37,749 nucleotides of DNA from positions 1 to 37,749 of the IMG/VR virus record IMGVR_UViG_3300021138_000088, one strand, 5' to 3'. Position 1 is the first letter of the stretch, and each line of letters starts with the position of its first letter. Below are positions 826 to 17,943 of this stretch, piece after piece. This DNA comes from a virus. The position numbers and the translations under genes were made by a program. The notes under the pieces were generated by a model, which searched no databases, was not told the DNA's origin, and worked only from the letters and a program-made list of their open reading frames with translations.

Positions 826-1211
826 GCTGCTACCCCATCGCATGGGCTTTCATTAATCCATTCGCCTGATTTGTCTAAAAATATGTAGGGTTTTTCGTAG
901 TCGTGAAACGTGGCCGTAACATTTATTTTTGACGCTCCATGATGATTAAGTGATTCAACAACTGAATTTATTGTGTTAACGCTTGGCCCTTCTCCCCACT
1001 CGATCAAACATAAGCAATCCTTAACAGGCCATGTTAGTTCGTGTGGAAATTGGTCATGACGAAGGACTAACGCACTAAATGCAGCGTGTTTGTTCCATGC
1101 CTCGGCTCGTTTCATTGATTCTCCACCCACACAGATAATCACTAAATCGGGCTTGTTGTTCCATTTGATACGCTTTTCTAAACTTAATCCAAAAACAGGT
1201 AGTTTCTTCAT
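822..1211 (-). CDS. Hypothetical protein
   Basis: A 129-residue protein of no recognised family. It has an N-terminal hydrophobic strand (PDLVIICVGG) and a Trp-rich middle (HELTWPVKDCLCLIEWGEG) but no signal peptide or membrane segment. ATG at 1211 overlaps the helicase TGA (ATGA) and its TGA overlaps the next ATG. It is therefore translationally coupled in the early operon between the helicase and the zinc-finger gene. A DNA-metabolism role is only suggested by position. Confidence 0.65.
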   Translation of the reverse strand: MKKLPVFGLSLEKRIKWNNKPDLVIICVGGESMKRAEAWNKHAAFSALVLRHDQFPHELTWPVKDCLCLIEWGEGPSVNTINSVVESLNHHGASKINVTATFHDYEKPYIFLDKSGEWINESPCDGVAA

Positions 1212-3655
1212 GCTGACACCCTATTTTTCATGCCTTTTGCATAGCGCATATTCAAATTAGTTATTTTTCTTGATATGGCGTCTGATACCGGAACCAAAAT
1301 TGATTTTTCAAATGTCATGCCGGCTTCTGGATCAAGTCCGGTAATGCCTTTGTATAAATGCTTTGAACGTGCTTTTTGATTGATTGGCGTACTATGCAAT
1401 TTAGAATGACTACAGCATTGATTCCAAATATCAGTTTTTTTCATTACAGGGGAATTTTTAGACTTTCCAATTTGTATTTCTTCAAGACTTCCAGCGACTG
1501 CAATAACCTGATTAACTCTTGCTCGCGTATATCCGCAATGGGTGCATGTGTCGCCTCGTGTTTCCCATAATCCACCGCATTTAGGACATTTAGCCGCCTC
1601 TTTTTCGGTTTGAGTGGGTTCTTTTTTTGGTTTTTCTGCCCCATCATCTAAAGCATGTACCCCATTTTCAAAAAGATCATCCCATTGATCTCTAAACCTT
1701 AAAAAATTACCTGAATGATCTAACCAAATCGCCGCCGTTTTTTCCCCGTGAGGTCTCATGATCCGACCTAGCTGTTGAACATGGCTAGAAAATGACTTTG
1801 AAAACGGCCTGGCTGATATCCCTATCATTACGTCAGCACAGTTGTGCACTAGAAGTCCATTGCAAGTGAAGCTATTTCTTGGTCCGGCGTTGAGAATGTC
1901 CCATACACGCCCTTTGGCTTGTCCGACTTCTTGTTGTATCTTTCTATTATCATTTCCGGCGTGAAACCCATTGAAAACAGATTCCTGAACGTCTTGTCTG
2001 CATACTTTATTTCCGGGTGATCTATTTTGAACTTGTGCATCATTGATACCCATCCCCCTCTTCGAGTATTGCAATTCTGCAACTGCCGACTTGCCCACCT
2101 TAAATTCCCGTCCTCGTAGTGACCATTGTTTTTTATTCTGTCTATCTGCGTGCTTTTGCTCTGCTTTACTATTCCTAGGTTTTGCGCTATCCAGTCCGCG
2201 CATTCTCTTGGAGTATTGAATCTGAACTCTATCCCACGCCCCCCATAATTTTTGTAATGCTTGTTTGAAGGATTTTGACAACGCTGCCTCATGTTTTCGC
2301 ACCGTCTTACTATCCAGATAGGCGTTTTTTCCTTGCTCACGCAACTCTTGCATCCTGCAAACTTCTCGTTGATTAAAACATTTCTTATGATGTTTAATTT
2401 TTCTCCACAATCTACGCACTCGCATTGATAATAAAGAACGCTTGACCACTTCTTTTTCCCCGGTTTTCTTATTAATTCCGGTGAAATAATTTTCATGCTC
2501 TTGAATTGCTTCCCTACCATTTCCGGTTGTAATGATTTCAATTTGTTTTTCGGCGCAAACCCCAAAGGGTAGCCAGCCTTCTGCTGTTTTGACTCTATGA
2601 TCTCTGGTTGCTGTAAGTCCGCAGTAAGTAATAACATCTTTTTCTCCACGATAAATAGCGCCGCCGTGATTGACATATTCGCGCCCATCCCATACTTTAT
2701 CATTTAACGAAAGTTTGTCAATAGGTATTAATCCATTATTTGTATTTATTAAGCTTCCCTCCAGTATGCAGTCAAAACCCTTTGTCAAAATATCTGTTGC
2801 TATCAACCCATGAATTGAGCTGTCAGGGCGTGAAAATTCTTTTAAAACTGCTTCTTTTTCTTCATCCGTATCTTTGTAACTGATTGATACAAAGTTGTAG
2901 CCTGCTTCTTTAAATTTTAAAGATAAATCTTGCCCATGCGCTACACCCGCACAAAAAACGATTGTTTTCTTAGGTCCATTGAATATTTCATAGGTTTTTT
3001 TAATCCATTCCTGAACAATATCGCCCGTGATTTTAATGCCTCGCTCAGTAACATCATCAGATGACCATTCGCCCATTTTCTTTTTTGCGCCGTCCATATC
3101 AATTTCTTTGGCGATAAAGACACGAAGGGGTGCAAGGCTGCCATTTTCCACTAACTCTTTAGTCGTCGATTTACTTATAACGTTGGTATAAATTGCCCCT
3201 AATCCTTTGGTGAATGGGCTTGCAGATAATCCAATGACTCTAATCTCAGGACGGTTTTTAATTAGCTCTCTGATTGATTCGCGTGAATTATGTGCCTCGT
3301 CAATGATAAGAAGATTCATACCTGGGAAAGATTCCCGTTTTTCTAAAGTTTGAGCTGAACATATTTGTATGTGGCTTTCTGGATTATATCTCCAGTGACC
3401 AGCCATCATGACGCCGTGATCTATATCGTATTTATCAAGTCGTTGGCTAGTTTGATCTACCAATACCCGTCTATCCATAACCATAGCTCCCTTATTTCCA
3501 GCTACTGAGGTTTTATCAAGCATTGAAATAGCTATTTCTGTTTTGCCGCCGCCTGTTGGCAGATAAAGCATTTGTGCTCTATGACCTGCTCTAAACCCTG
3601 CGCGTACAGCATCAATAGTATCATGCTGATAATCTCGAAGCGATAAACTAGCCAT
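1208..3655 (-). CDS. SF2 DEAH-type DNA helicase interrupted by an intein
   Basis: An 815-residue precursor; after removing the intein (residues 296-605) the helicase is about 505 residues. Superfamily 2 motifs appear in order: Q-like RDYQ (7-10), Walker A PTGGGKT (33-39), DEAH box IIDEAH (117-122), motif III SASP (144-147), motif V ATDILTKGFD (286-295, cut by the intein), and motif VI QQLGRIMRP (627-635). A C-terminal zinc ribbon has CPKC (690-693) and CTHC (704-707). The layout resembles RadD- or restriction-helicase-like phage replication helicases. It starts 8 nt inside the DUF3102 gene's 3' end. No polymerase or primase is visible, so this is probably the phage's main replication or repair helicase. 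Activity requires splicing. Confidence 0.93.
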   Translation of the reverse strand: MASLSLRDYQHDTIDAVRAGFRAGHRAQMLYLPTGGGKTEIAISMLDKTSVAGNKGAMVMDRRVLVDQTSQRLDKYDIDHGVMMAGHWRYNPESHIQICSAQTLEKRESFPGMNLLIIDEAHNSRESIRELIKNRPEIRVIGLSASPFTKGLGAIYTNVISKSTTKELVENGSLAPLRVFIAKEIDMDGAKKKMGEWSSDDVTERGIKITGDIVQEWIKKTYEIFNGPKKTIVFCAGVAHGQDLSLKFKEAGYNFVSISYKDTDEEKEAVLKEFSRPDSSIHGLIATDILTKGFDCILEGSLINTNNGLIPIDKLSLNDKVWDGREYVNHGGAIYRGEKDVITYCGLTATRDHRVKTAEGWLPFGVCAEKQIEIITTGNGREAIQEHENYFTGINKKTGEKEVVKRSLLSMRVRRLWRKIKHHKKCFNQREVCRMQELREQGKNAYLDSKTVRKHEAALSKSFKQALQKLWGAWDRVQIQYSKRMRGLDSAKPRNSKAEQKHADRQNKKQWSLRGREFKVGKSAVAELQYSKRGMGINDAQVQNRSPGNKVCRQDVQESVFNGFHAGNDNRKIQQEVGQAKGRVWDILNAGPRNSFTCNGLLVHNCADVMIGISARPFSKSFSSHVQQLGRIMRPHGEKTAAIWLDHSGNFLRFRDQWDDLFENGVHALDDGAEKPKKEPTQTEKEAAKCPKCGGLWETRGDTCTHCGYTRARVNQVIAVAGSLEEIQIGKSKNSPVMKKTDIWNQCCSHSKLHSTPINQKARSKHLYKGITGLDPEAGMTFEKSILVPVSDAISRKITNLNMRYAKGMKNRVSA
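1841..2770 (-). other. Intein coding segment inside helicase motif V
   Basis: A 310-residue in-frame insertion, Cys296 to Asn605. Splicing blocks visible: block A starting CILEGSLINTNNG (Cys1); block B with Thr-x-x-His in TATRDHRVK (T350, H353); block F RVWDILNAGPRNSFTC; block G LLVHN, followed by Cys606 as the +1 nucleophile. All catalytic residues for class 1 splicing (Cys1, block B His, penultimate His, terminal Asn, Cys+1) are present, so splicing is expected. Removal joins KGFD to CADVMIGISARPF and rebuilds helicase motif V. Between blocks B and F the intein frame has no recognisable in-frame endonuclease, only about 200 basic, Gln-rich residues. That stretch overlaps an HNH gene in another frame. 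Confidence 0.93.
1849..2520 (-). CDS. HNH homing endonuclease encoded out of frame inside the intein
   Basis: A 223-residue reading frame on the same strand as the helicase but in a different frame, wholly inside the intein. It has a four-Cys zinc site (CECVDCG with CKSC), then RRCENMRQRCQNPSNKHYKN, YGGRGIEF, and the HNH-like IDRIKNNGHYEDGNLRWA followed by NCNTRR. This pattern is common in phage HNH homing endonucleases. The start is unclear: ATG at 2520 or ATG at 2496 are plausible with weak ribosome sites, and the frame stays open up to 2703. The stop lies 8 nt before the intein end, so the C-terminus overlaps intein blocks F and G. It is expected to cut intein-less helicase alleles and mobilise the intein. 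Translation inside another frame is inferred. Confidence 0.8.
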   Translation of the reverse strand: MVGKQFKSMKIISPELIRKPGKKKWSSVLYYQCECVDCGEKLNIIRNVLINEKFAGCKSCVSKEKTPIWIVRRCENMRQRCQNPSNKHYKNYGGRGIEFRFNTPRECADWIAQNLGIVKQSKSTQIDRIKNNGHYEDGNLRWASRQLQNCNTRRGGWVSMMHKFKIDHPEIKYADKTFRNLFSMGFTPEMIIERYNKKSDKPKGVYGTFSTPDQEIASLAMDF

Positions 3656-4430
3656 TGTTCACCTCCAAGAATTTTTTGATTCTTTTCTCTAGGCTTTGAA
3701 TTTGTCTAGTTTGCGCCGCTATGGTGTTCATTTTTTGGTCAATGGATGACTCAAGCGAGGTGTTCAATATTTTCAATATTCTTATTTCTTCAAGCGCGGC
3801 TGCCAATTTGTCATCAGCGCCCATAACCTTTACTAAATAGTCATTTTCTTTTTGCAGTTTGGCATTAACAGAAAATACTTCCTCGACAATGTTATCCAGC
3901 TCTTGTTCTTGGGTAATGTATTCTTCGGTATCTTTGTCTGTGACCGGATCATAAACAGGCACTTCTTTCACGATCTCAACAAATTCGCCTTCTAAAATTT
4001 CCGGCTCAACATTTCTTGATGCTAATTCTGCTAATTTTCGTTCACGTTCGGCTTTTGCTTCGGCTTGTTTTTGCTCTTCAATAGCGGCCAATTCTTCGGC
4101 GCGTTTAAATTGTTCTTCGGTAGAATCAGATATTGCCAAAGTAATTCCATTTATTGACGACTCCCCTTTAAAATATTCCAAAACAAGGAATTTATGAGAA
4201 GCAATTTGCATTATTTTTTGAGCCTGGCGACTATCAAAAGCGAACTCGGAGTGCGCTTTTATAAACTTTTCCCAGTGACCATGCGGCACTAATTTTTTCG
4301 CTTCAATCAGTTTTTCGCCTAACACGATGACTGATTGAACATAACTTTTTTTGGTGTTTTCCATCTTGTCAAAAGCCTTGTTTATTCCTAAAACAAGTTG
4401 CTTTTCATTTGGAATTAAATCTTTGCTCAT
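3648..4430 (-). CDS. DUF3102-like phage protein with coiled coil
   Basis: A 260-residue protein. The N-terminal part (about 25-85) has the DUF3102 pattern: LGEKLIEAKKLVPHGHWEKFI, then FDSRQAQKIMQIA. The middle (105-140) is a charged helix rich in Glu, Ala and Lys. The C-terminal third (about 175-258) is predicted coiled coil with LQKEN and LEKRIKKFLE. Members occur in phages and plasmids next to replication or partition genes; their biochemical role is not established. Its 3' end overlaps the helicase start by 8 nt, so the two are coupled. A GAGGAAAAG ribosome site lies upstream. Confidence 0.75.
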   Translation of the reverse strand: MSKDLIPNEKQLVLGINKAFDKMENTKKSYVQSVIVLGEKLIEAKKLVPHGHWEKFIKAHSEFAFDSRQAQKIMQIASHKFLVLEYFKGESSINGITLAISDSTEEQFKRAEELAAIEEQKQAEAKAERERKLAELASRNVEPEILEGEFVEIVKEVPVYDPVTDKDTEEYITQEQELDNIVEEVFSVNAKLQKENDYLVKVMGADDKLAAALEEIRILKILNTSLESSIDQKMNTIAAQTRQIQSLEKRIKKFLEVNNG

Positions 4431-4461
4431 GTTATACTTTTCCTCGTTGATTTATTTCAAT

Positions 4462-4498
4462 AAAGCCCGCTTTTACTTTCACGGTTCAGCGGGTTTTT
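4462..4498. terminator. Hairpin with CCCGCT/AGCGGG stem at the end of the DUF5710 gene
   Basis: CCCGCT (4466-4471) pairs with AGCGGG (4488-4493), followed on the plus strand by TTTTT. In the leftward (gene) direction the tail is CTTTATT, a weak U-run, and the stop codon of the DUF5710 gene lies in the stem. It probably attenuates rather than ends leftward transcription, since the operon continues. Confidence 0.45.
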
Positions 4499-4677
4499 CT
4501 GTTTCTAGCATTTACTTCTTTGTGTGGCGTAACATGTTCCCTACACATCCACTTTAAAAATGGCTCTAGGTTTTCCACGTTAACTACATACCAGCATGAT
4601 TTGATTCCATCCCATTTAGCACCAAGTTTTTTGGCTTCGTCTTTTTGTGAAAACGGTACTATCAAGTCTATTCTCAT
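4486..4677 (-). CDS. DUF5710-domain small protein
   Basis: A 63-residue protein starting MRIDLIVPFSQKDEAKKLGA. The pattern (I/L)xVPFxxKDEAKxLGAKWD, then CWYV and LEPFLKWM, is that of DUF5710, a short domain found alone or attached to plasmid and phage DNA-processing proteins; its function is unknown. ATG at 4677 is chosen because the homology starts there, although the frame runs upstream to 4728. A GGGAA sequence 11-15 nt upstream is a weak ribosome site. The gene lies directly behind a large structured RNA (4690-4990) that may be its leader. Confidence 0.7.
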   Translation of the reverse strand: MRIDLIVPFSQKDEAKKLGAKWDGIKSCWYVVNVENLEPFLKWMCREHVTPHKEVNARNRKTR

Positions 4678-4689
4678 ATCAGCATCTTG

Positions 4690-4990
4690 TTCCCGGTGAG
4701 GTGAGCCGGCAAAAGAACCCCTTCCCAAACAGTTTGGGAGAGTGGATAGTTCTCTTGCCGTAAGTTCTGGTAAATACCCTTTTTAAAAGGCATTTGCCGG
4801 ACTTTACAGTGATCCAATTAAGCAAGTGCGCCGTAACCTCACCTACTCCCTTCGACTATGGATTTCGAACCGTCGTGTGGACTTTTAAGGAATTGCACCC
4901 CGCGATTAAAAGGATTTCCACCTTACATAACTGCCGCGTACCACATGAGCCTATAGGGGCCTTAATCCTGCAAAGTTTTGTGACAATCAG
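4690..4990 (-). ncRNA. Large structured RNA, unassigned, in the leftward early transcript
   Basis: No protein gene fits here. Paired regions: an 8-bp closing helix (4695-4702 with 4836-4843) encloses a 12-bp stem (4707-4718 with 4749-4760) capped by a TCCCAAA/TTTGGGA hairpin (4723-4739), and a 10-position hairpin (4769-4778 with 4789-4798). Further 5' in the RNA, TTGCA (4893-4897) pairs with 4969-4973 and GATTAA (4904-4909) with 4962-4967, plus a CGAC/GTCG hairpin (4853-4875) holding a T-loop-like GGTTCGAAATCC. Two stem positions pair as G-U only in the minus-strand RNA, which fixes the strand. It resembles no RNA class I can name. Candidates are an antitermination RNA, a regulatory leader of the DUF5710 gene or a stable trans-acting RNA. 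Confidence 0.65.
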
Positions 4991-5031
4991 CCCTATGCAA
5001 TGGCTAAACTAAAGTGTGTCGTGACTTTTAA

Positions 5032-5125
5032 AGCAAAAAAAAACACATAATACTCGATCGGGCCGGATAAAGTATTATGTGTTTCGGGGTTTTAGATATT
5101 GTCCCGGCCCAGGAATATCTAAAAC
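5032..5125 (-). promoter_or_regulatory. Two perfect hairpins with complementary GC-only loops and a U-run
   Basis: In leftward RNA, hairpin 2 (5114-5125 with 5089-5100, 12 bp) is followed by hairpin 1 (5071-5084 with 5041-5054, 14 bp) and then a run of T (minus strand of 5035-5043). The stems are almost pure A-T, but the loops hold GGGCCGG and CCGGCCC (plus-strand 5060-5066 and 5104-5110), perfectly complementary over 7 nt. Two flanking G-U pairs extend this to 9 only on the minus strand. Hairpin 1 plus the U-run looks like an intrinsic terminator for the short regulator transcript; the loop-loop kiss could stabilise or control it. Confidence 0.75.
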
Positions 5126-5142
5126 TTGATTTATATTACACA

Positions 5143-5364
5143 TTAATATTTATCGTGTAAAGATTTAAAATGCAAACATTCCCTTTTTTCCGTTCCTCCC
5201 CAAAAAACATCGCAGTCTCTTGGTTGCCCCAATTCCATCAAAACATGTTCCCGAAATATGGTTCGCGAACATGCCCAAGTGTAGTATTTACACTGTCCTA
5301 CACCATAACCGCTACCGATTGTGTCAGGAATAAACCCTTTGCAGTCACGGCAACAAAAAAGCAT
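5143..5364 (-). CDS. Cys-rich small protein
   Basis: A 73-residue protein starting MLFCCRDCKGFIPDTIGSG, with eight cysteines including CCRDC, GQCKYY, WAC, RDC and a C-terminal KREC followed by HFK. The pairs suggest one or two structural metal sites. No family recognised. The start ATG at 5364 overlaps the TAA of the upstream HTH regulator (TAATG), so the two are coupled as the first two genes of the leftward early transcript, before the kissing-hairpin terminator. That position is typical of small phage regulators or host-takeover proteins. Confidence 0.6.
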   Translation of the reverse strand: MLFCCRDCKGFIPDTIGSGYGVGQCKYYTWACSRTIFREHVLMELGQPRDCDVFWGGTEKRECLHFKSLHDKY

Positions 5365-5555
5365 TACTTGTTTGCATAAATTTCTTTAAAATGGGCTTCC
5401 TGAAAGGCCACCACTTTTTTTGCAATAGACAAATAACAATCCTTGCCCTTGCTTATCCTATTAATAGTAGGCTGAGTAACGCCAGACTTATCAGCAATTT
5501 CTTGTTGAGTCATCCCAGCATTTAATAGCAACTTAACACTTACTTGCGGGTTCAT
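5364..5555 (-). CDS. Cro/XRE-type helix-turn-helix regulator
   Basis: A 63-residue protein. MTQQEIADKSGVTQPTINRI (about 15-34) is a clear XRE-type helix-turn-helix with the recognition helix TQPTINRISKG. At 63 residues there is no C-terminal oligomerisation or cleavage domain, so it is Cro-like rather than CI-like. It is the first gene of the leftward transcript and faces the rightward operon across an AT-rich intergenic region with palindromes, its likely operators. A GGAT sequence precedes the ATG. No larger repressor or integrase exists in the window, so this may be the only switch-type regulator. Confidence 0.85.
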   Translation of the reverse strand: MNPQVSVKLLLNAGMTQQEIADKSGVTQPTINRISKGKDCYLSIAKKVVAFQEAHFKEIYANK

Positions 5556-5586
5556 TATATATCCAAAAAATAAAAAACTATAGTTA

Positions 5587-5614
5587 ATTATACATGAATA
5601 AATTAATTTATAAA
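5587..5614 (-). promoter_or_regulatory. Leftward early promoter candidate
   Basis: On the minus strand TATAAT (5592-5587) is preceded at a 16-nt spacing by TTTATA (5614-5609), a 4/6 match to the -35 box. Start of transcription would be near 5580, about 25 nt before the HTH regulator ATG. Confidence 0.55.
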
Positions 5615-5647
5615 TTATAAAAATAATGCTTGATTCATTAATTCATT
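5594..5647. promoter_or_regulatory. Candidate operators for the HTH regulator
   Basis: Between the divergent promoters lie a perfect 14-bp palindrome ATAAATTAATTTAT (5598-5611) and ATTCAT elements at 5634-5639 and 5642-5647, with the inverted ATGAAT at 5594-5599. The last pair falls in the spacer of the rightward promoter. Binding is inferred from position and symmetry; the AT-rich background weakens the case. Confidence 0.4.
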
Positions 5648-5657
5648 TCTGTATAAT
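5630..5657 (+). promoter_or_regulatory. Rightward early promoter
   Basis: TTGATT (5630-5635), 16-nt spacer, TATAAT (5652-5657). The -10 is perfect and the -35 matches 4 of 6. It drives the long leader and the rightward early operon. Confidence 0.7.
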
Positions 5658-5860
5658 TCTTCACTAACGGGACTAGCAACCTCGACCAGCTTCAAGCAAG
5701 CAAGGCGTTAAGAGCCTCGAATCTTAGCAAGACGATATAATAATCACAGACCTTGCAACACAGCTCTTTTAGTTTTAATCAAGATAATCGCTTAACCATT
5801 CCTAACAAGACCATTCGTAAAACATCCGATCCATGTTTTATAGCTTGTAATCAAGGGTTA

Positions 5861-5941
5861 ATTTTTATTTAACTTCGACTTAAATAAAAATAATGAATTA
5901 AGTGATTATCTTAATTACTTCTAAAGGGTAATCCACTACCC
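5861..5941 (+). promoter_or_regulatory. Leader hairpins upstream of the attenuator
   Basis: In the rightward leader, ATTTTTATTTAA (5861-5872) pairs with TTAAATAAAAAT (5880-5891) around a CTTCGAC loop. Then GGGTA (5926-5930) can pair with TACCC (5937-5941). The second pairing uses bases that also form the left arm of the terminator, so the two are mutually exclusive. The rest of the leader (5665-5860) shows no credible gene; the only mini-ORF (5833-5850, five residues) lacks a ribosome site. Confidence 0.5.
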
Positions 5942-5961
5942 CGTTTCGACGGGGACTTTTT
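5939..5961 (+). terminator. Intrinsic terminator inside the early leader (attenuator)
   Basis: CCCCGT-TTCG-ACGGGG (5939-5954), a six-bp GC stem with a UUCG tetraloop, then AC and TTTTT (5957-5961). It lies 49 nt before the first gene of the rightward operon, so it must be bypassed for expression. Confidence 0.75.
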
Positions 5962-6009
5962 AAATAGCATTTACGAGTGTTATTTAAAAACTTAACTTGG
6001 AGAAAAACA

Positions 6010-6222
6010 ATGGCAGGACAAGCGTTTAAACGATACCATCTAGTGATGGCTGCAGTATCAAGATTAATGGCGGGCGACGCGTCAAAAGGAATTTTATCGA
6101 TTCCTATGGAACAAGCTTTATTTGAAACACCCGCCTATGTTTCTCGTGGTAAAGGAGGTAAACAAGCGCACAAAACAGGACATAAGCACATGGCGTATGT
6201 TCGTGCTCAAAGAAAAAAATAA
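6010..6222 (+). CDS. Small basic hypothetical protein
   Basis: A 70-residue protein starting MAGQAFKRYHLVMAAVSR. ATG at 6010 has TTGGAG 8 nt upstream; an earlier in-frame ATG (5977) lies inside a leader hairpin and lacks a site. The C-terminal third is strongly basic (RGKGGKQAHKTGHKH, then VRAQRKK), suggesting nucleic-acid binding. No family recognised. It is the first gene of the rightward early transcript, after an attenuator and immediately before a structured RNA. An N-like RNA-binding or antitermination role is possible but unproven. Confidence 0.65.
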   Translation: MAGQAFKRYHLVMAAVSRLMAGDASKGILSIPMEQALFETPAYVSRGKGGKQAHKTGHKHMAYVRAQRKK

Positions 6223-6228
6223 ACAAAA

Positions 6229-6480
6229 GCGGATACGTTGATCGTGCTGGACGTGCCAGTTGGCAGCTAGAGCCATAACTAGATGACGTGACGAAAGAGT
6301 CACCCATACCGGATTATTTAGCAATCTGAGTACGTGGAATAGAGACAGCTAGATGACCGCTTGGAAAGACAAGCATTAACAAAGATAGACTCTTAAATCA
6401 GAAATGATTAGGTGGGGAAATCCGAGAGCATGGCAATAGCGATGCCAATTATCCGTAGAGTCTATCTTTATTAATTCCTG
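6229..6480 (+). ncRNA. Structured RNA with twin GAAAGA-loop hairpins, unassigned
   Basis: No gene fits this stretch. Two similar motifs, 70 nt apart, consist of CTAGATGAC (6279-6287 and 6349-6357) followed by a 5-bp hairpin with loop GAAAGA: GTGAC/GTCAC (6288-6303) and GCTTG/CAAGC (6359-6374). The stems differ but both pair, while loop and 5' flank are kept, as expected for RNA. A 13-bp perfect stem (6381-6393 with 6457-6469) encloses an AATCA-GAAA-TGATT hairpin with a GNRA loop (6396-6409) and TGGCA/TGCCA (6431-6447). A CGGATT/AATCTG hairpin with a G-U pair lies at about 6310-6328, and TGCC/GGCA near 6254-6265. It matches no class I know. Confidence 0.65.
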
Positions 6481-6533
6481 TGCACAATTTTAGCGAAATT
6501 TAACACATCACAACTTGTGTGAATATAAGCCGA

Positions 6534-6556
6534 GCACTTGTGAGAGTGCATTTTTT
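6534..6556 (+). terminator. Intrinsic terminator after the structured RNA
   Basis: GCACT (6534-6538) pairs with AGTGC (6545-6549), loop TGTGAG, followed by A and TTTTTT (6551-6556). A weaker CACA/TGTG hairpin lies just before it. It precedes the ERF-SSB gene block, so early expression of that block needs readthrough, antitermination or an unseen promoter. Confidence 0.7.
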
Positions 6557-6573
6557 AAATTTAGGGGGGATTT

Positions 6574-6831
6574 ATGAAATCAGAATATGACTTATTAAGA
6601 AATTTTGTGCCAACTGAAGAAGAATTGAAAGCAAGCATGAAAGCGGCGAGAAATACATATGTTAATAGGGATTATATGCCAAGGATTGAATCCCTGGATA
6701 ACAATCACCCAAACTGGCGCAATCCTATAAAAAATCGCTACGAAGAAAGCAGCAAAATCACTGCTTATTGTTTTATCGCGGGTGTTTTAACTGTAATTCT
6801 GGCTGTTTTGGTAGATTTATGGGGTGGATAA
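6574..6831 (+). CDS. Small membrane-anchored hypothetical protein
   Basis: An 85-residue protein: a charged N-terminal two-thirds and a C-terminal membrane helix (about 63-81, YCFIAGVLTVILAVLVDLW). It would be tail-anchored with the bulk in the cytoplasm. A strong ribosome site (AGGGGGG) precedes the ATG. It is the first gene after the terminator at 6556, and its TAA overlaps the next ATG. No family recognised. Confidence 0.65.
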   Translation: MKSEYDLLRNFVPTEEELKASMKAARNTYVNRDYMPRIESLDNNHPNWRNPIKNRYEESSKITAYCFIAGVLTVILAVLVDLWGG

Positions 6832-10635: not shown

Positions 10636-10844
10636 AACGGCTACACGTCCAAACATCACCCTTAACTAATACCATATTTTGTGGACATGTTTTGAAAGAT
10701 AATCGCACTTGGGCAGCCAATAAACAGGATGTAACTATGGAGGCGTTAATTGCAGTTGCTAATCATGTTTTACAGTTTGGTAAGCCTGTTGAAATAACAA
10801 ATAACGATAAACCTGAATTTAGAATAACGGTGGAAAGATTATGA
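10632..10844 (+). CDS. Conserved small phage protein
   Basis: A 70-residue protein: LHVQTSPLTNTIFCGHVLKD, WAANKQDVTMEALIAVANHV and a closing strand (PEFRITVERL). I recall closely similar proteins of the same length in many proteobacterial phages, so it is likely a conserved family, but no function is known. ATGA overlaps at both ends. Confidence 0.6.
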   Translation: MKRLHVQTSPLTNTIFCGHVLKDNRTWAANKQDVTMEALIAVANHVLQFGKPVEITNNDKPEFRITVERL

Positions 10845-11437
10845 AAGAGCTAATTGAAAAACTAAAAAATGGTTATGTAGAGTTAGAGCGTGGACATCCT
10901 GAATATGGAGTAGCCGGATATTTCTCTGTCGATATAGAAAAAACAGATAGACTAATGCAACAAGCCGCTGAAAAAATTGAAGATCTACCGAGGTTAGTTA
11001 ATGGTAAAAAATCGTTTGATGATTTAATTGAGCGATTAAATAAAGGGATGATCTATTACGACTCATGGGACATGTATGCAGTCAACGAGAGAGAGACAAA
11101 ATTACTTATTGCTGAAGCTGCTGAAGCTATCAAGTTGTCTGAAAAAAGACTTGCTGAGCAATTTGAGATATCAAGCAAAGCGATTGAAACAATAGTTAAG
11201 CGAAGCATTGAGTCAAGAATTGCCACTAATAATTTTTCTGACATAGAAAAGGAGATTCTTGATGGTGTTTATCAGGTGTTGGACGGTTCGCCCATGAAAG
11301 ACGCTTTTCGTCAGTTTAATGAGGTTGAAGCAATTATGTTTTTATGTAACGAACTTTATGGGAAAGAATTTATGGCAGAACGCAATCTTGAAAAAGTGCT
11401 TATAAAACTAGGGATAATAGAGGTTGATGATGAGTGA
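10841..11437 (+). CDS. Paralogous-module protein 1 (two module copies)
   Basis: A 198-residue protein with two copies of a short module: KELIEKLKNGYVELE...RLMQQAAEKIEDL (about 2-48) and DDLIERLNKGMIYYD...LLIAEAAEAIKL (about 60-100). The module recurs in the next three genes. The second half is helical and unlike its neighbours. ATGA overlap with the gene before; the stop is overlapped 8 nt by the next ATG. Function unknown. Confidence 0.55.
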   Translation: MKELIEKLKNGYVELERGHPEYGVAGYFSVDIEKTDRLMQQAAEKIEDLPRLVNGKKSFDDLIERLNKGMIYYDSWDMYAVNERETKLLIAEAAEAIKLSEKRLAEQFEISSKAIETIVKRSIESRIATNNFSDIEKEILDGVYQVLDGSPMKDAFRQFNEVEAIMFLCNELYGKEFMAERNLEKVLIKLGIIEVDDE

Positions 11438-11717
11438 TGTTAAAGAGCTAGTTGAAAAATTAAAGGCTGGAGTTATTAATACTGATAAAGATAGTTATAA
11501 CTATGATGATTTTTACACTATCAATATTGATGCAACAGAAGAATTGATGCAAGAAGCCGCCAATGCACTTGACTATCTAAAGAAAAAGCGGGAGCCGCTG
11601 AGTGATGATGAAATATCAAAAGGCTGTCCTTACCGAATTGATGTGTTTAAATCAACATTTCTTGAAGGCGCAAGATATGCTGAAAAAGCGCACAAAATAG
11701 GTATTGGCAATGAGTGA
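11430..11717 (+). CDS. Paralogous-module protein 2
   Basis: A 95-residue protein starting MSDVKELVEKLKAGVINTDK, then EELMQEAANALDYL: the same N-terminal module as its neighbours. The C-terminal part PLSDDEI...FLEGARYAEKAHKIGIGNE is shared with the next gene. ATG at 11430 is set by the ATGAGTGA overlap with the previous stop and by the match of MSD starts among paralogues. Function unknown. Confidence 0.55.
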   Translation: MSDVKELVEKLKAGVINTDKDSYNYDDFYTINIDATEELMQEAANALDYLKKKREPLSDDEISKGCPYRIDVFKSTFLEGARYAEKAHKIGIGNE

Positions 11718-12000
11718 TATTGAAAAGCTAGTTGAAAAACTTAATGAAGGGATTGTGCATTATTACAAAACCCCATTCATTAATCTTGTTGGTACTAAAA
11801 AACTAATGAGAGAAGCCGCTGAAAAAATTGAATATCTTTATGTACAGATTAACGAGTTGAAGAAAATAAAGCCGCTTAGTGATGCTGAGATAGAAAATGA
11901 ACATTATAAATTTAGAATGCCTTTTGCTTGGGACAGGGGATTTGAGGCGGGCGTTAAGTTTGCTGAAAAAATGCACAAAATAGGAGTTAGTGATGAGTGA
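11710..12000 (+). CDS. Paralogous-module protein 3
   Basis: A 96-residue protein, MSDIEKLVEKLNEGIVHYYK, then LMREAAEKIEYL, and a C-terminal PLSDAEI...FEAGVKFAEKMHKIGVSDE. It is a paralogue of the gene immediately upstream along its whole length. It starts with the same ATGAGTGA junction. Function unknown. Confidence 0.55.
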   Translation: MSDIEKLVEKLNEGIVHYYKTPFINLVGTKKLMREAAEKIEYLYVQINELKKIKPLSDAEIENEHYKFRMPFAWDRGFEAGVKFAEKMHKIGVSDE

Positions 12001-12637
12001 TACTAATGCGCTGGTAGATAAATTAAATGAAATGGCGGTCTATTGGAGCGGAGATGATTACGATACGTGCAGAGAAGCCGCTGAAAAACTTGAATCGTAT
12101 CAGCGCGTATTTATTGTATATAAAGCCTGTATGGATAATTTGGAAAAAAGGGCTAAATCACTTCAAGCCGAGATAGATGCGCTTAAATCTGATGATCCTT
12201 TCGGGTGGCTGTTTGAAGAAAAGCATATCTCGCCAAGATTGATTTATAACAATCGTTTAATGGGTAGTCCAATTGGGCCGAGTGATGATTTTTTAGAGCA
12301 GAATAAAGATAAGTTAACACCACTTTTTAAGAGCGTACAACCTAATAAATCAAGCGAACCAGTGGCTTGGATTTATGATTACTATGGTGCACATGGAATA
12401 CAAAAAAACAAATTAACCATACATAAATCTTATTTTGATGATTTTGTTTTATACGATAAATATAAAAATATTCGTCCACTATACCTACGCTCACAACCTA
12501 ATGCGCCATTGCTGAGTGCTAAAGCAATAGCAGATACTTGGAACAAACACGCTGTAAAAAATGAGCTATATTCAATAGTAATAGATAATTTTGCTAGAGA
12601 TATTGAGTCACAAGTGAGGAGTCAGTATGAAAGTTGA
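11993..12637 (+). CDS. Paralogous-module protein 4 with long C-terminal extension
   Basis: A 214-residue protein. The N-terminus MSDTNALVDKLNEMAVYWSG...CREAAEKLESY is a shorter version of the shared module. A coiled-coil helix (DNLEKRAKSLQAEIDALKS) follows, then a segment EPVAWIYDYYGAHG...IRPLYLRSQPNAPLLSAKAI that resembles the PVAW...PLY accessory domain common in small phage proteins. The start is defined by the third ATGAGTGA junction. Function unknown. Confidence 0.5.
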   Translation: MSDTNALVDKLNEMAVYWSGDDYDTCREAAEKLESYQRVFIVYKACMDNLEKRAKSLQAEIDALKSDDPFGWLFEEKHISPRLIYNNRLMGSPIGPSDDFLEQNKDKLTPLFKSVQPNKSSEPVAWIYDYYGAHGIQKNKLTIHKSYFDDFVLYDKYKNIRPLYLRSQPNAPLLSAKAIADTWNKHAVKNELYSIVIDNFARDIESQVRSQYES

Positions 12638-12902
12638 ACAATATCTAAAATCGGTGGGATTGAAAGTCATAAATGACAGCGTTTTAAACTGCACTTATGA
12701 CACAACTGTTTTGCCAAACATCAAACAGATTGAAAGCTTAGGAGACATTATCAAACATAATATAATCGCAGAAGATGATAAAAATATTCGTGGTTTAATC
12801 GAGTATTACACGCACTTAACCGCTAAATTAACAGGCGCTTTGATTGTTTTATCATGTGTCGTGGTGTTTGAGTTTTTGTGGTTTATGGGGGGGTTAGAAT
12901 GA
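12627..12902 (+). CDS. Small protein with C-terminal membrane helix
   Basis: A 91-residue protein with a soluble N-terminal part and one membrane helix near the end (about 69-88, TGALIVLSCVVVFEFLWFMG). GAGGAG lies 5 nt before the ATG, which overlaps the previous gene by 11 nt. Tail-anchored topology; role unknown. Confidence 0.55.
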   Translation: MKVEQYLKSVGLKVINDSVLNCTYDTTVLPNIKQIESLGDIIKHNIIAEDDKNIRGLIEYYTHLTAKLTGALIVLSCVVVFEFLWFMGGLE

Positions 12903-14144: not shown

Positions 14145-14888
14145 TCATGCTGCCTCTATCCTTTTCTTTGCAATTTCAAAATAACCAGAATCCAATTCCA
14201 TGCCGATAAATGAGCGGTTAAGGTTTTTTGCTGCTACTCCGGTTGAGCCGCTTCCCATTGTGTTGTCTAACACTGTTTCACCTTCATTAGTGTAGGTTTT
14301 GATTAGGTATTCAAGTAGTGCTACTGGTTTTTGGGTTGGGTGAATCCCTCTTTTTGCGTTTGAAAACTCTAGTATAGAGACAGGGTAATAGCAATCATTT
14401 ATAGATTTACTCATTTCCATGTTTAAAATTTTACTTATACCGCCTCCTTTTGTTCTCATTTTACCTTTTCGCATTTTTGGATTGTAAAAATGTTTTTTAT
14501 TACTGAAAACACAAATATCCTCATGCGTTTTTAATGGTTGATGCTTGGCTAATAATGGATTTCCGCTTATTTTTTTATCCCAAACCCAGCAATATTTAAA
14601 CCACTTAGGATTACTCATAACAAGCGCACTGGTAAATGGTTGAGAGCCAAACAACACTATTGCCCCATTAGGTTTAATAATCCGCTTGTAGTGCGCCCAC
14701 AATGGCTCAAATGGAATAACTGTGTCCCACTTACAAGCTGTTATTCCTATTCAGCCGTAGGGCAAATCGCACAAAACCATATCAATACTTCCATCCGCTA
14801 TATCCTGCATAGCTTTTAAACAGTCTTCATTGATTAAGGTAATATGTGATGATTGCCCTACGGACTCGTCACCTTTAATATTAGTCAT
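14145..14888 (-). pseudogene. DNA methyltransferase broken by an in-frame TGA
   Basis: The 744-nt frame codes for a beta-type adenine/cytosine-N4 methyltransferase with motif IV DLPYG near residue 45, then FGSQPFTSALVMSN, HPTQKPVALLEYLI and a C-terminal motif I region VLDNTMGSGSTG. A TGA at 14753-14751 directly follows DLPYG; after three further codons the frame resumes with TACKWDTVIPFEPLW. Without readthrough, translation yields a 45-residue fragment, and an internal start (for example TTG at 14702) gives a C-terminal piece without motif IV. The N-terminal 45 codons may have been supplied by the upstream homing endonuclease element, since a second copy of this region lies at 15588-15677. 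Probably inactive. Confidence 0.75.
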
Positions 14889-15523
14889 ATATAAAATAAA
14901 TCGCTTTTAGTATTTGTTTCTAGTTTAAATTTTTCCCATTCATCATGATTCATTTCAGCTTTAGCTCTATTTTCAAACCATGTTAAAAATTGAAGATTAT
15001 CAAGGCTCCAATTTTCCCCATTAAACTTACTTACTTTGTGATCTAGTGAAGGTAAATACCACTTGTTCTTTCCTGTTTCTTGCCATTTGTCATATATTCG
15101 ATTGAATTGTTCATCAAAATAAAACTTGTCAAGAAACGACTTTCTTACATAATCATCAAAACCTAAATAATTTTTATGCTTTGATAGGTAGTGAGTTAAA
15201 AACTTCAATTTCTCATAATTAGGGTAAAGACTTATCAAATCTATAGATGTCTTTAATTTGCCCTTCATGTTTTTCCGTTTAAAGACTTCATCCATTTTTA
15301 ACCCTTTTTGCCAAGACACATAACCCATAGCTTTTCTAGCATTAACTATCTTTTGCTTGTGCTCATCAGTCATTGGTTTACGGCGTTGTTTTTCGGTAAT
15401 CGGTATGTTGTGTTTGTTTAGTATTCTCTTAATCCTATGATGATCTGTGGAGAAGTGATCTGCCACCATTCTTAAAGTCCAAAGTTCATCGACGTATAAT
15501 CTTATAACTTCCTGCTCATTCAT
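14885..15523 (-). CDS. HNH homing endonuclease inserted in the methyltransferase locus
   Basis: A 212-residue protein. An N-terminal helix-turn-helix (about 1-42, RMVADHFSTDHHRIKRILNK) is followed by a modular DNA-binding stretch RRKPMTDEHKQKIVNARKAMG (48-67) like NUMOD repeats. The nuclease centre is SLDHKVSKFNGENWSLDNLQFL (159-180; D161, H162, N176) and ENRAK (184-188). It is flanked by two N-terminal copies of a methyltransferase gene. Its stop overlaps the ATG of the downstream copy (ATGA). A GGGA ribosome site sits in the arm of a 14-bp hairpin, so translation is likely regulated. Confidence 0.85.
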   Translation of the reverse strand: MNEQEVIRLYVDELWTLRMVADHFSTDHHRIKRILNKHNIPITEKQRRKPMTDEHKQKIVNARKAMGYVSWQKGLKMDEVFKRKNMKGKLKTSIDLISLYPNYEKLKFLTHYLSKHKNYLGFDDYVRKSFLDKFYFDEQFNRIYDKWQETGKNKWYLPSLDHKVSKFNGENWSLDNLQFLTWFENRAKAEMNHDEWEKFKLETNTKSDLFYI

Positions 15524-16923: not shown

Positions 16924-17943
16924 TTACTCGATGATTAGGTGATCTGCTATGCCGCGTGTCGAGACGTAGCTATTCGAGAGTGTGGGGGAATAGGCCCAAG
17001 TAGAGTAACGCGAACCGGCGTTTGTAGTGTCTGACCAGCTTCCCCCAAACATTACGACATTGCATAACTGATAAGTATTCCCTCTACCACCTGTGTTAGC
17101 TGTCCATGCTGCTGTCCCAGCTCCACCGCCAAAGTCTTTACCCCAAATACCCATCACTCCCGTTGATTGTATAATCCCCCATTTAGAAGTATATGCAGCA
17201 TTTAACTGGGTTGTAATTTGATCAGTGCCTATAGCCGATGCTTCTGTAGTGCCATAAGCCAATGTAGCATATTCCTGATACGATGCCGACCGTTTGCCGT
17301 ATGCTGCTAGTATCTCGTTAGCTTCCCACCACGTAAGACTGCTATAACTATTTGATCCATTACCGCCAAAAGCGATAGGTATAATAGCTGGGCTGCTACC
17401 ATCACATATCTGCACACCGTATTTGCTAGTGCCATTGACATCAGGATTAGTATTTAATAGATAAATATCAGCCCAGAAGTTATTAGCTACCAGTGTCATG
17501 CCGTGTGGGTCTGGGCATCTGGGCTTCCATTTTAAATCCCAGAAAGAGTAGGGGTTGATTTGAGGAGTAGTATTGCCGCCGGAGTTAGCCGCTGCATTGC
17601 CACCAGGTGCATAGTGGAAACCGCCGATTTTTCGCGCTCCGGTGCTTGGGGCGCTGATGAAGTTAGTTGATGCTGTTAGGGTTCCACCCACTTCAGCCCA
17701 GATAGCATAGTCTGTACCTGCGGTTAGAGAGGGTAAATTAACTGATGTTCCGACTGCAATGCTATATGTAACTCCACCCACGTCAACATAAAATTGCATA
17801 GATGTTAATACATTTTGTCCTGTTGTTTGAAATACAACCTGACCAGTAATGCTTTTAACAAATAAACCATTGGGCGAAAAAACAGACGCCGGAGGGCCTA
17901 ATGTTGGTAAAAGATTTGTATTTTGAAAAGCTGATGATGGCAT
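16924..17943 (-). CDS. Receptor-binding tail protein with C-type-lectin-like (Mtd/FGE-like) C-terminus
   Basis: A 339-residue protein. Residues 1-110 are beta-rich (VVFQTTGQNV...TAGTDYAIWAEVGGT). From about 130 on (WKPRCPDPHGM, SLTWWEANEILAAYGKR, ASYQEYATLAYG) it follows the FGE-sulfatase/C-type lectin fold of major tropism determinants. It ends in MFGGSWSDTTNAGSRYSTWA...YVSTRGIADHLIIE, the region that is variable in BPP-1 Mtd. It is expected to sit at the tail tip and bind the host receptor. No reverse transcriptase or template repeat is seen here. It is the penultimate gene of the tail module. Confidence 0.8.
   Translation of the reverse strand: MPSSAFQNTNLLPTLGPPASVFSPNGLFVKSITGQVVFQTTGQNVLTSMQFYVDVGGVTYSIAVGTSVNLPSLTAGTDYAIWAEVGGTLTASTNFISAPSTGARKIGGFHYAPGGNAAANSGGNTTPQINPYSFWDLKWKPRCPDPHGMTLVANNFWADIYLLNTNPDVNGTSKYGVQICDGSSPAIIPIAFGGNGSNSYSSLTWWEANEILAAYGKRSASYQEYATLAYGTTEASAIGTDQITTQLNAAYTSKWGIIQSTGVMGIWGKDFGGGAGTAAWTANTGGRGNTYQLCNVVMFGGSWSDTTNAGSRYSTWAYSPTLSNSYVSTRGIADHLIIE

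Follow-up and report, generated by a model that had tools for sequence, protein, structure and literature searches.

Twin AU-rich hairpins with complementary loops at a putative leftward terminator in the early control region of an uncultured freshwater phage

Intrinsic (Rho-independent) terminators combine a stable hairpin with a short GC-rich stem and a U-tract that follows it, shortly past a stop codon. In plasmid kissing pairs of the RNAI/RNAII type (ColE1), fully complementary 7-nt loop segments lie on separate antisense RNAs. Loop-loop contacts also bear on terminator formation in corrinoid riboswitches, where the L5-L13 kiss joins the loop of an upstream hairpin to the expression-platform hairpin and stabilizes a stem that allows the terminator (PMC10653944). 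Among phages, the put RNA of HK022 acts on the polymerase through two adjacent stem-loops, with non-canonical pairs and a triplex in their stems (PMC9378689).

Here, we analyzed a 37,749-nt stretch of viral DNA, referred to below as the window, which is a complete or nearly complete phage genome (~37.75 kb, 41% GC) with terminase relatives at 60 to 66% in viral contigs. A further contig (L004), identical to the window, bridges both window ends with 4 extra bases (L004 positions 5587-5590), which indicates a circular or circularly permuted genome of which the window lacks 4 bases. In its early control region the window carries two neighboring hairpins, the features of which are as follows.

5089-5125, minus strand: hairpin A, the upstream hairpin of the leftward RNA, with a perfect 12-bp stem and a 13-nt loop (fold prediction)
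5041-5084, minus strand: hairpin B, the putative terminator hairpin of the leftward RNA, with a perfect 14-bp stem and a 16-nt loop (fold prediction)
5104-5110, minus strand: loop 7-mer of hairpin A, read as GGGCCGG in leftward RNA and as CCGGCCC on the plus strand
5060-5066, minus strand: loop 7-mer of hairpin B, read as CCGGCCC in leftward RNA and as GGGCCGG on the plus strand
5035-5040, minus strand: U-tract of six T past the stem, or nine (5043-5035) counting the stem T at 5041-5043

Compared with an intrinsic terminator, the locus shares the stable hairpin, the U-tract and the position shortly past a stop codon, but its stem of 14 bp is AU-rich and closes a 16-nt loop, and 4 nt upstream of it stands a second hairpin whose loop is complementary to that of the terminator hairpin. 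The loop segments resemble those of the ColE1 pairs in being 7 nt long and fully complementary, whereas here both loops lie on one strand of one transcript. The corrinoid riboswitch offers the best precedent for steering a terminator through a loop-loop contact, with an upstream loop that reaches a downstream hairpin; membership in that class is not supported here, and the differences are that the locus has no aptamer, no Rfam match and no competing antiterminator, that the candidate kissing partner is the terminator hairpin itself, and that the partners are adjacent. Among phages, HK022 put RNA is the best precedent for a pair of stem-loops that acts on polymerase, and the likeness—one of arrangement, not of compared put sequences—is that two stem-loops lie side by side, possibly close to where a leftward phage transcript begins; membership is again not supported, and here the stems are perfect and a U-tract directly follows the second hairpin.

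Structure and gene context of the twin hairpins

Read on the minus strand, hairpin A (12 bp) is followed by a 4-nt spacer (CCCG), hairpin B (14 bp) and the T-run. The arms of hairpin B are AAACACATAATACT and AGTATTATGTGTTT, with the loop CGATCGGGCCGGATAA on the plus strand and UUAUCCGGCCCGAUCG on the minus strand; those of hairpin A are GTTTTAGATATT and AATATCTAAAAC, with the loop GTCCCGGCCCAGG on the plus strand and CCUGGGCCGGGAC on the minus strand. Three of the 14 pairs in the stem of hairpin B are G-C, and its foot is AU-rich. A previous sequence-only reading of this DNA had described perfect stems of 14 and 12 bp with 7-nt, GC-only complementary loops, and also two G-U pairs possible on the minus strand alone; the letters bear out both descriptions, with one U-G and one G-U pair extending the seven GC pairs and with unpaired flanks on the plus strand. 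The same reading counted about nine T after the second hairpin: nine are indeed present, yet three of them form the foot of the stem and six follow it. This U-tract exists on the minus strand only, the plus-strand exit from hairpin A being TTGATTTATATT.

The twin-hairpin structure is real and non-random, and not a chance fold: the minus-strand fold reaches -35.6 kcal/mol, compared with -18.3 ± 2.7 for shuffled sequences (z = -6.5; 0 of 200 shuffles reach it), and the plus-strand fold has a z of -3.9 in the corresponding shuffle comparison. No pair of perfect stems of at least 9 bp and at most 15 nt apart was found in 2.1 Mb of other DNA examined. The sole other strong loop match, of 8 nt and with shorter stems, occurs in contig L177 and was rejected as a comparable pair, since it sits inside an array of ACGTG palindromes; this array (L177 8950-9060) is dense, and very stable folds are possible there on both strands.

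The genes around the hairpins, and a promoter-like site next to them, are listed below.

5364..5555, minus strand: helix-turn-helix (HTH) regulator gene, 63 aa, first in the leftward unit (Pfam HTH_3, 4.1e-07; phrog_6831, transcriptional regulator, 6.8e-13)
5143..5364, minus strand: ORF73, a Cys-rich orphan directly after the HTH gene, ending 18 nt before hairpin A
5133..5161, minus strand: promoter-like site TTTACA-17-TAATAT, matching the consensus at 9 of 12 positions, with a predicted RNA start at ~5126, one base before hairpin A
4735..5030, minus strand: moderately structured stretch (z = -2.4) of ~300 nt that separates the hairpins from DUF5710 and has no recognizable gene
4486..4728, minus strand: DUF5710 gene, the next leftward gene past the hairpins (Pfam, 7.1e-17)
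3648..4430, minus strand: DUF3102 gene, farther downstream and leftward (Pfam, 8e-09)
1208-3655, minus strand: helicase ORF, 815 aa, following DUF3102 on the leftward strand

Rightward genes, which include ERF and SSB, begin at ~6010. ORF73 belongs to no Pfam or PHROG family, its IMG/VR relatives all come from the same phage, and it has no similarity to the Cys-rich ORF that follows the HTH gene in contig L012. The hairpins had been placed in a control region after two regulator genes. They do lie in the early control region, by the HTH regulator; ORF73 lacks a family match, and, judged from sequence, the HTH gene is the only flanking gene recognizable as a regulator, ORF73 not being a demonstrated one. 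The 4735-5030 stretch has no Rfam match and no homologue was found for it.

A probable leftward terminator after a small repressor operon

Our preferred reading, to which we assign a probability of about 0.6, is that the twin hairpins form an intrinsic terminator for leftward (minus-strand) transcription, in which the upstream hairpin is an accessory, placed after a small repressor operon. We infer termination and its direction from the U-tract on one strand and the position just past a stop codon, which together favor a leftward intrinsic terminator: a stable hairpin with a 14-bp stem stands directly before six T on the minus strand, and hairpin A starts about 18 nt past the stop codon of ORF73, as expected at the end of a transcription unit. 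Against this reading, the stem is AU-rich, the loop is wide and a consensus terminator scan does not list hairpin B; with 3 of 14 G-C pairs and a 16-nt loop, it departs from the consensus model of a GC-rich stem and a short loop. The earlier identification of hairpin B as a leftward terminator hairpin is thus partly supported, position and T-run speaking for it and the composition of the stem and the result of the scan against it. A convergent, bidirectional terminator shared with a rightward gene at 4794-5012 was rejected, as this plus-strand ORF has no family match and there is no U-tract on that strand.

If the element acts as a leftward terminator, RNA polymerase would read through the HTH gene and ORF73, or would extend a short RNA begun at the 5161-5133 site. 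Hairpin A would fold first and hairpin B next, as the polymerase arrives at the U-tract (5040-5035), and the transcript would be released with the two hairpins as its 3' end. Termination at this point would split the regulator unit from the 300-nt noncoding stretch and from the DUF5710-DUF3102-helicase genes. Once both hairpins had formed, their loops could pair through seven GC and two G-U pairs; this pairing would anchor the loop of the terminator and may help to keep hairpin B closed despite its AU-rich stem and wide loop. Possibly the terminator also ends a separate RNA of 90 nt that consists of the two hairpins and has a promoter-like site of its own.

Possible loop-loop pairing and competing explanations

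Whether the two loops pair at all we put at about even odds. Their complementarity goes beyond chance: given these loop sizes, a match of at least 7 nt has p = 0.008 when the loop composition is kept and p = 0.004 under the window composition, and 0.4% of loop shuffles attain the duplex energy of the loop pairing. On the minus strand, the predicted kiss gains -7.1 kcal/mol over the nested fold, counting both hairpin-loop penalties and one duplex initiation but no topological penalty; a gain as good is seen for 3.5% of loop shuffles and for 1.1% of loops drawn from the window. The plus strand gains more (-10.2 kcal/mol) because the loops are less self-structured there, and since the kiss is at least as favorable on that strand, it is no pointer to a leftward RNA. 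The proposed loop contact is thus predicted to be energetically favorable on the minus-strand RNA, but it is not specific to that strand.

A loop-to-loop contact is physically plausible. In the minimum-energy structure of the minus strand, loop A folds on itself in a 5-bp helix (UCCUG/CGGGA), and since the nested fold prefers this helix, a kiss would have to open loop A first; the loop of hairpin B shrinks from 16 nt to 6 nt if an inner 3-bp helix is counted. Only four bases join the hairpins, too few for a kissing complex stacked end to end. In a rigid-helix model with the real loop flanks of 3 to 5 nt and the 4-nt linker, every start gave arrangements that satisfied all linkers, whereas no arrangement was found for loops of seven paired bases without flanks; the model is coarse and cannot rank geometries, and since it forbids coaxial stacking, the control with a long linker failed to converge. 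The two 7-mers, GGGCCGG (5060) and CCGGCCC (5104), occur once each on the plus strand of the window and nowhere else on that strand of the genome, which makes another target within the phage unlikely.

The strongest competitor, which we rate somewhat short of even odds, is a plain terminator whose loop complementarity is coincidental and has no structural role; it overlaps with the terminator reading, and the confidences need not total one. A 7-nt match has a 0.4 to 0.8% chance per hairpin pair, and this pair was chosen for being striking; the self-folding of loop A and a kiss that is no stronger on the U-tract strand are likewise in keeping with coincidence. What speaks for a role of the loops is that all matched letters are G or C in a genome of 41% GC, that the two G-U pairs extend it on the U-tract strand, and that so few loop shuffles equal its duplex energy.

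A stand-alone small RNA of ~90 nt, made up of the two hairpins, started from its own promoter (TTTACA-17-TAATAT, ~5126) and ended at the same U-tract, seems unlikely, although it is compatible with hairpin B as a terminator. Through its complementary loops, this RNA would fold compactly or dimerize, and its target in trans would be host RNA or a protein. A start one base before hairpin A and a U-tract after hairpin B would delimit exactly two hairpins, and chance would place a start no more than 3 nt from the hairpin in near 1% of cases (from ~1.6 one-strand matches per kb in shuffles). Promoter-like matches in this AT-rich region are, however, no commoner than in shuffles (6 found against 7.9 expected), so that only the position of the 5133-5161 site is suggestive; moreover, the RNA has no Rfam family and its loop 7-mers have no other match on the phage plus strand.

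We regard as quite improbable the stronger version of the terminator reading, in which the loop of the upstream hairpin pairs with the terminator loop and thereby sets the efficiency of stopping or passing at the border between the regulator unit and the leftward early operon. Switching could in that case possibly be brought about by a protein or an RNA that binds one loop. If the contact forms and alters termination, the element would be a compact, protein-free way of tuning a terminator through tertiary pairing with a neighbor hairpin, simpler than riboswitch expression platforms; if it has no effect, this is an ordinary phage terminator, though an unusually AU-rich one.

A site acting as DNA with no role for RNA, at which a repressor or recombinase binds the two interrupted palindromes or these extrude as cruciforms, is very improbable. 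The control region by the HTH gene, the perfect palindromes and a predicted kiss energy as good on the plus strand would suit such a site, but the U-tract is on one strand only, the arm sequences and half-site spacings differ between the palindromes, unlike those of repeated operators, and no recombinase was found among the proteins scanned (a subset of the ORFs). GC-rich palindrome centers disfavor cruciform opening, and both centers are GC-rich here.

Least probable of all is an antitermination or attenuation element of the leftward early operon with a logic like that of HK022 putL, in which the RNA or the loop contact would switch between a state that lets polymerase past the U-tract and one that stops it there: two stem-loops do lie directly downstream of a possible leftward promoter (a consensus match only), the region 5030-4430 has no further minus-strand promoter-like match, so that the downstream genes may need read-through, a separate hairpin with a short U-rich stretch precedes DUF3102 in this phage and in contig L087, and kissing loops steer a terminator in corrinoid riboswitches (PMC10653944), but the genome holds a single copy where put occurs on both the left and right early transcripts, folding of growing transcripts gave no alternative structure competing with hairpin B, and the stems are perfect, unlike put stems with their non-canonical pairs and triplex (PMC9378689).

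Relatives of the locus and other features of the genome

Among the collections searched, the element is carried only by identical copies of the same phage. Searches of viral, phage, plasmid and Methylococcales collections found no homologue of the control region: its DNA gave no homologue among phage records, only DUF5710 fragments among plasmids, one 20-nt match and no homologue among 46 terminase-related viral records, and only short, low-scoring matches among 311 genomes from the order of a Crenothrix MAG with a DUF3102-helicase relative. Searches by protein led to the same phage only (DUF3102 alone), to one distant relative (ERF) and to nothing in phages (orf70). A helicase search and a DUF3102 alignment brought up L087 (contig 3300046005_001339), L187 (a Crenothrix element) and G128; the first two break off just upstream of DUF3102, and G128 and L012 have different DNA upstream, the hairpin pair being absent from the related loci compared. 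A loop-motif scan of viral contigs returned, besides the same phage, only L216 and L217, which were rejected because both motifs are the arms of one hairpin in unrelated sequence; the scan of the 311 genomes gave 22 rows, a count similar to that of the reversed control, with no twin hairpin seen when the sequences were read by eye. None of these searches gave a diverged homologue of the element in which compensatory loop changes, or stems kept with non-complementary loops, could be sought. At the gathering threshold, Rfam gave no match anywhere in the window; at E values relaxed up to 5, the interval 4480-6620 had no credible match.

The hairpin and short U-rich stretch just before the DUF3102 start codon, at 4430-4500 on the minus strand and at 60-146 in L087, have different stems in the two phages (CCCGCU/AGCGGG and AAGCCCC/GGGGCUU) with flanking TTATTGAAAT, and are possibly a conserved attenuator or terminator. 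The helicase ORF (1208-3655, minus strand) contains an insert of ~300 residues that is absent from the homologues in L087 and L203; it starts with CILEGSLINTNNG and ends with LLVHNC, intein-like features, with no Pfam intein match at an E value of 0.001. On the plus strand, a strongly structured noncoding stretch follows the first rightward ORF (6222-6480; z = -5.25, 0 of 200 shuffles), with the closing stem GATAGACTCT/AGAGTCTATC and no Rfam match.

Farther along, a DNA methylase on the minus strand (14145-14888) is apparently split in two ORFs, 14751-14888 and 14145-14702, apparently as an interrupted or decaying gene, and the neighboring ORF at 14885-15523 has no Pfam match. The tail protein at 16924-17943 (minus strand) has an Mtd second domain like that of the tropism determinant of BPP-1; no template repeat was found within the window. 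Finally, related small genes form a tandem array on the plus strand at 10841-12640, with common repeats of 25 to 82 nt.
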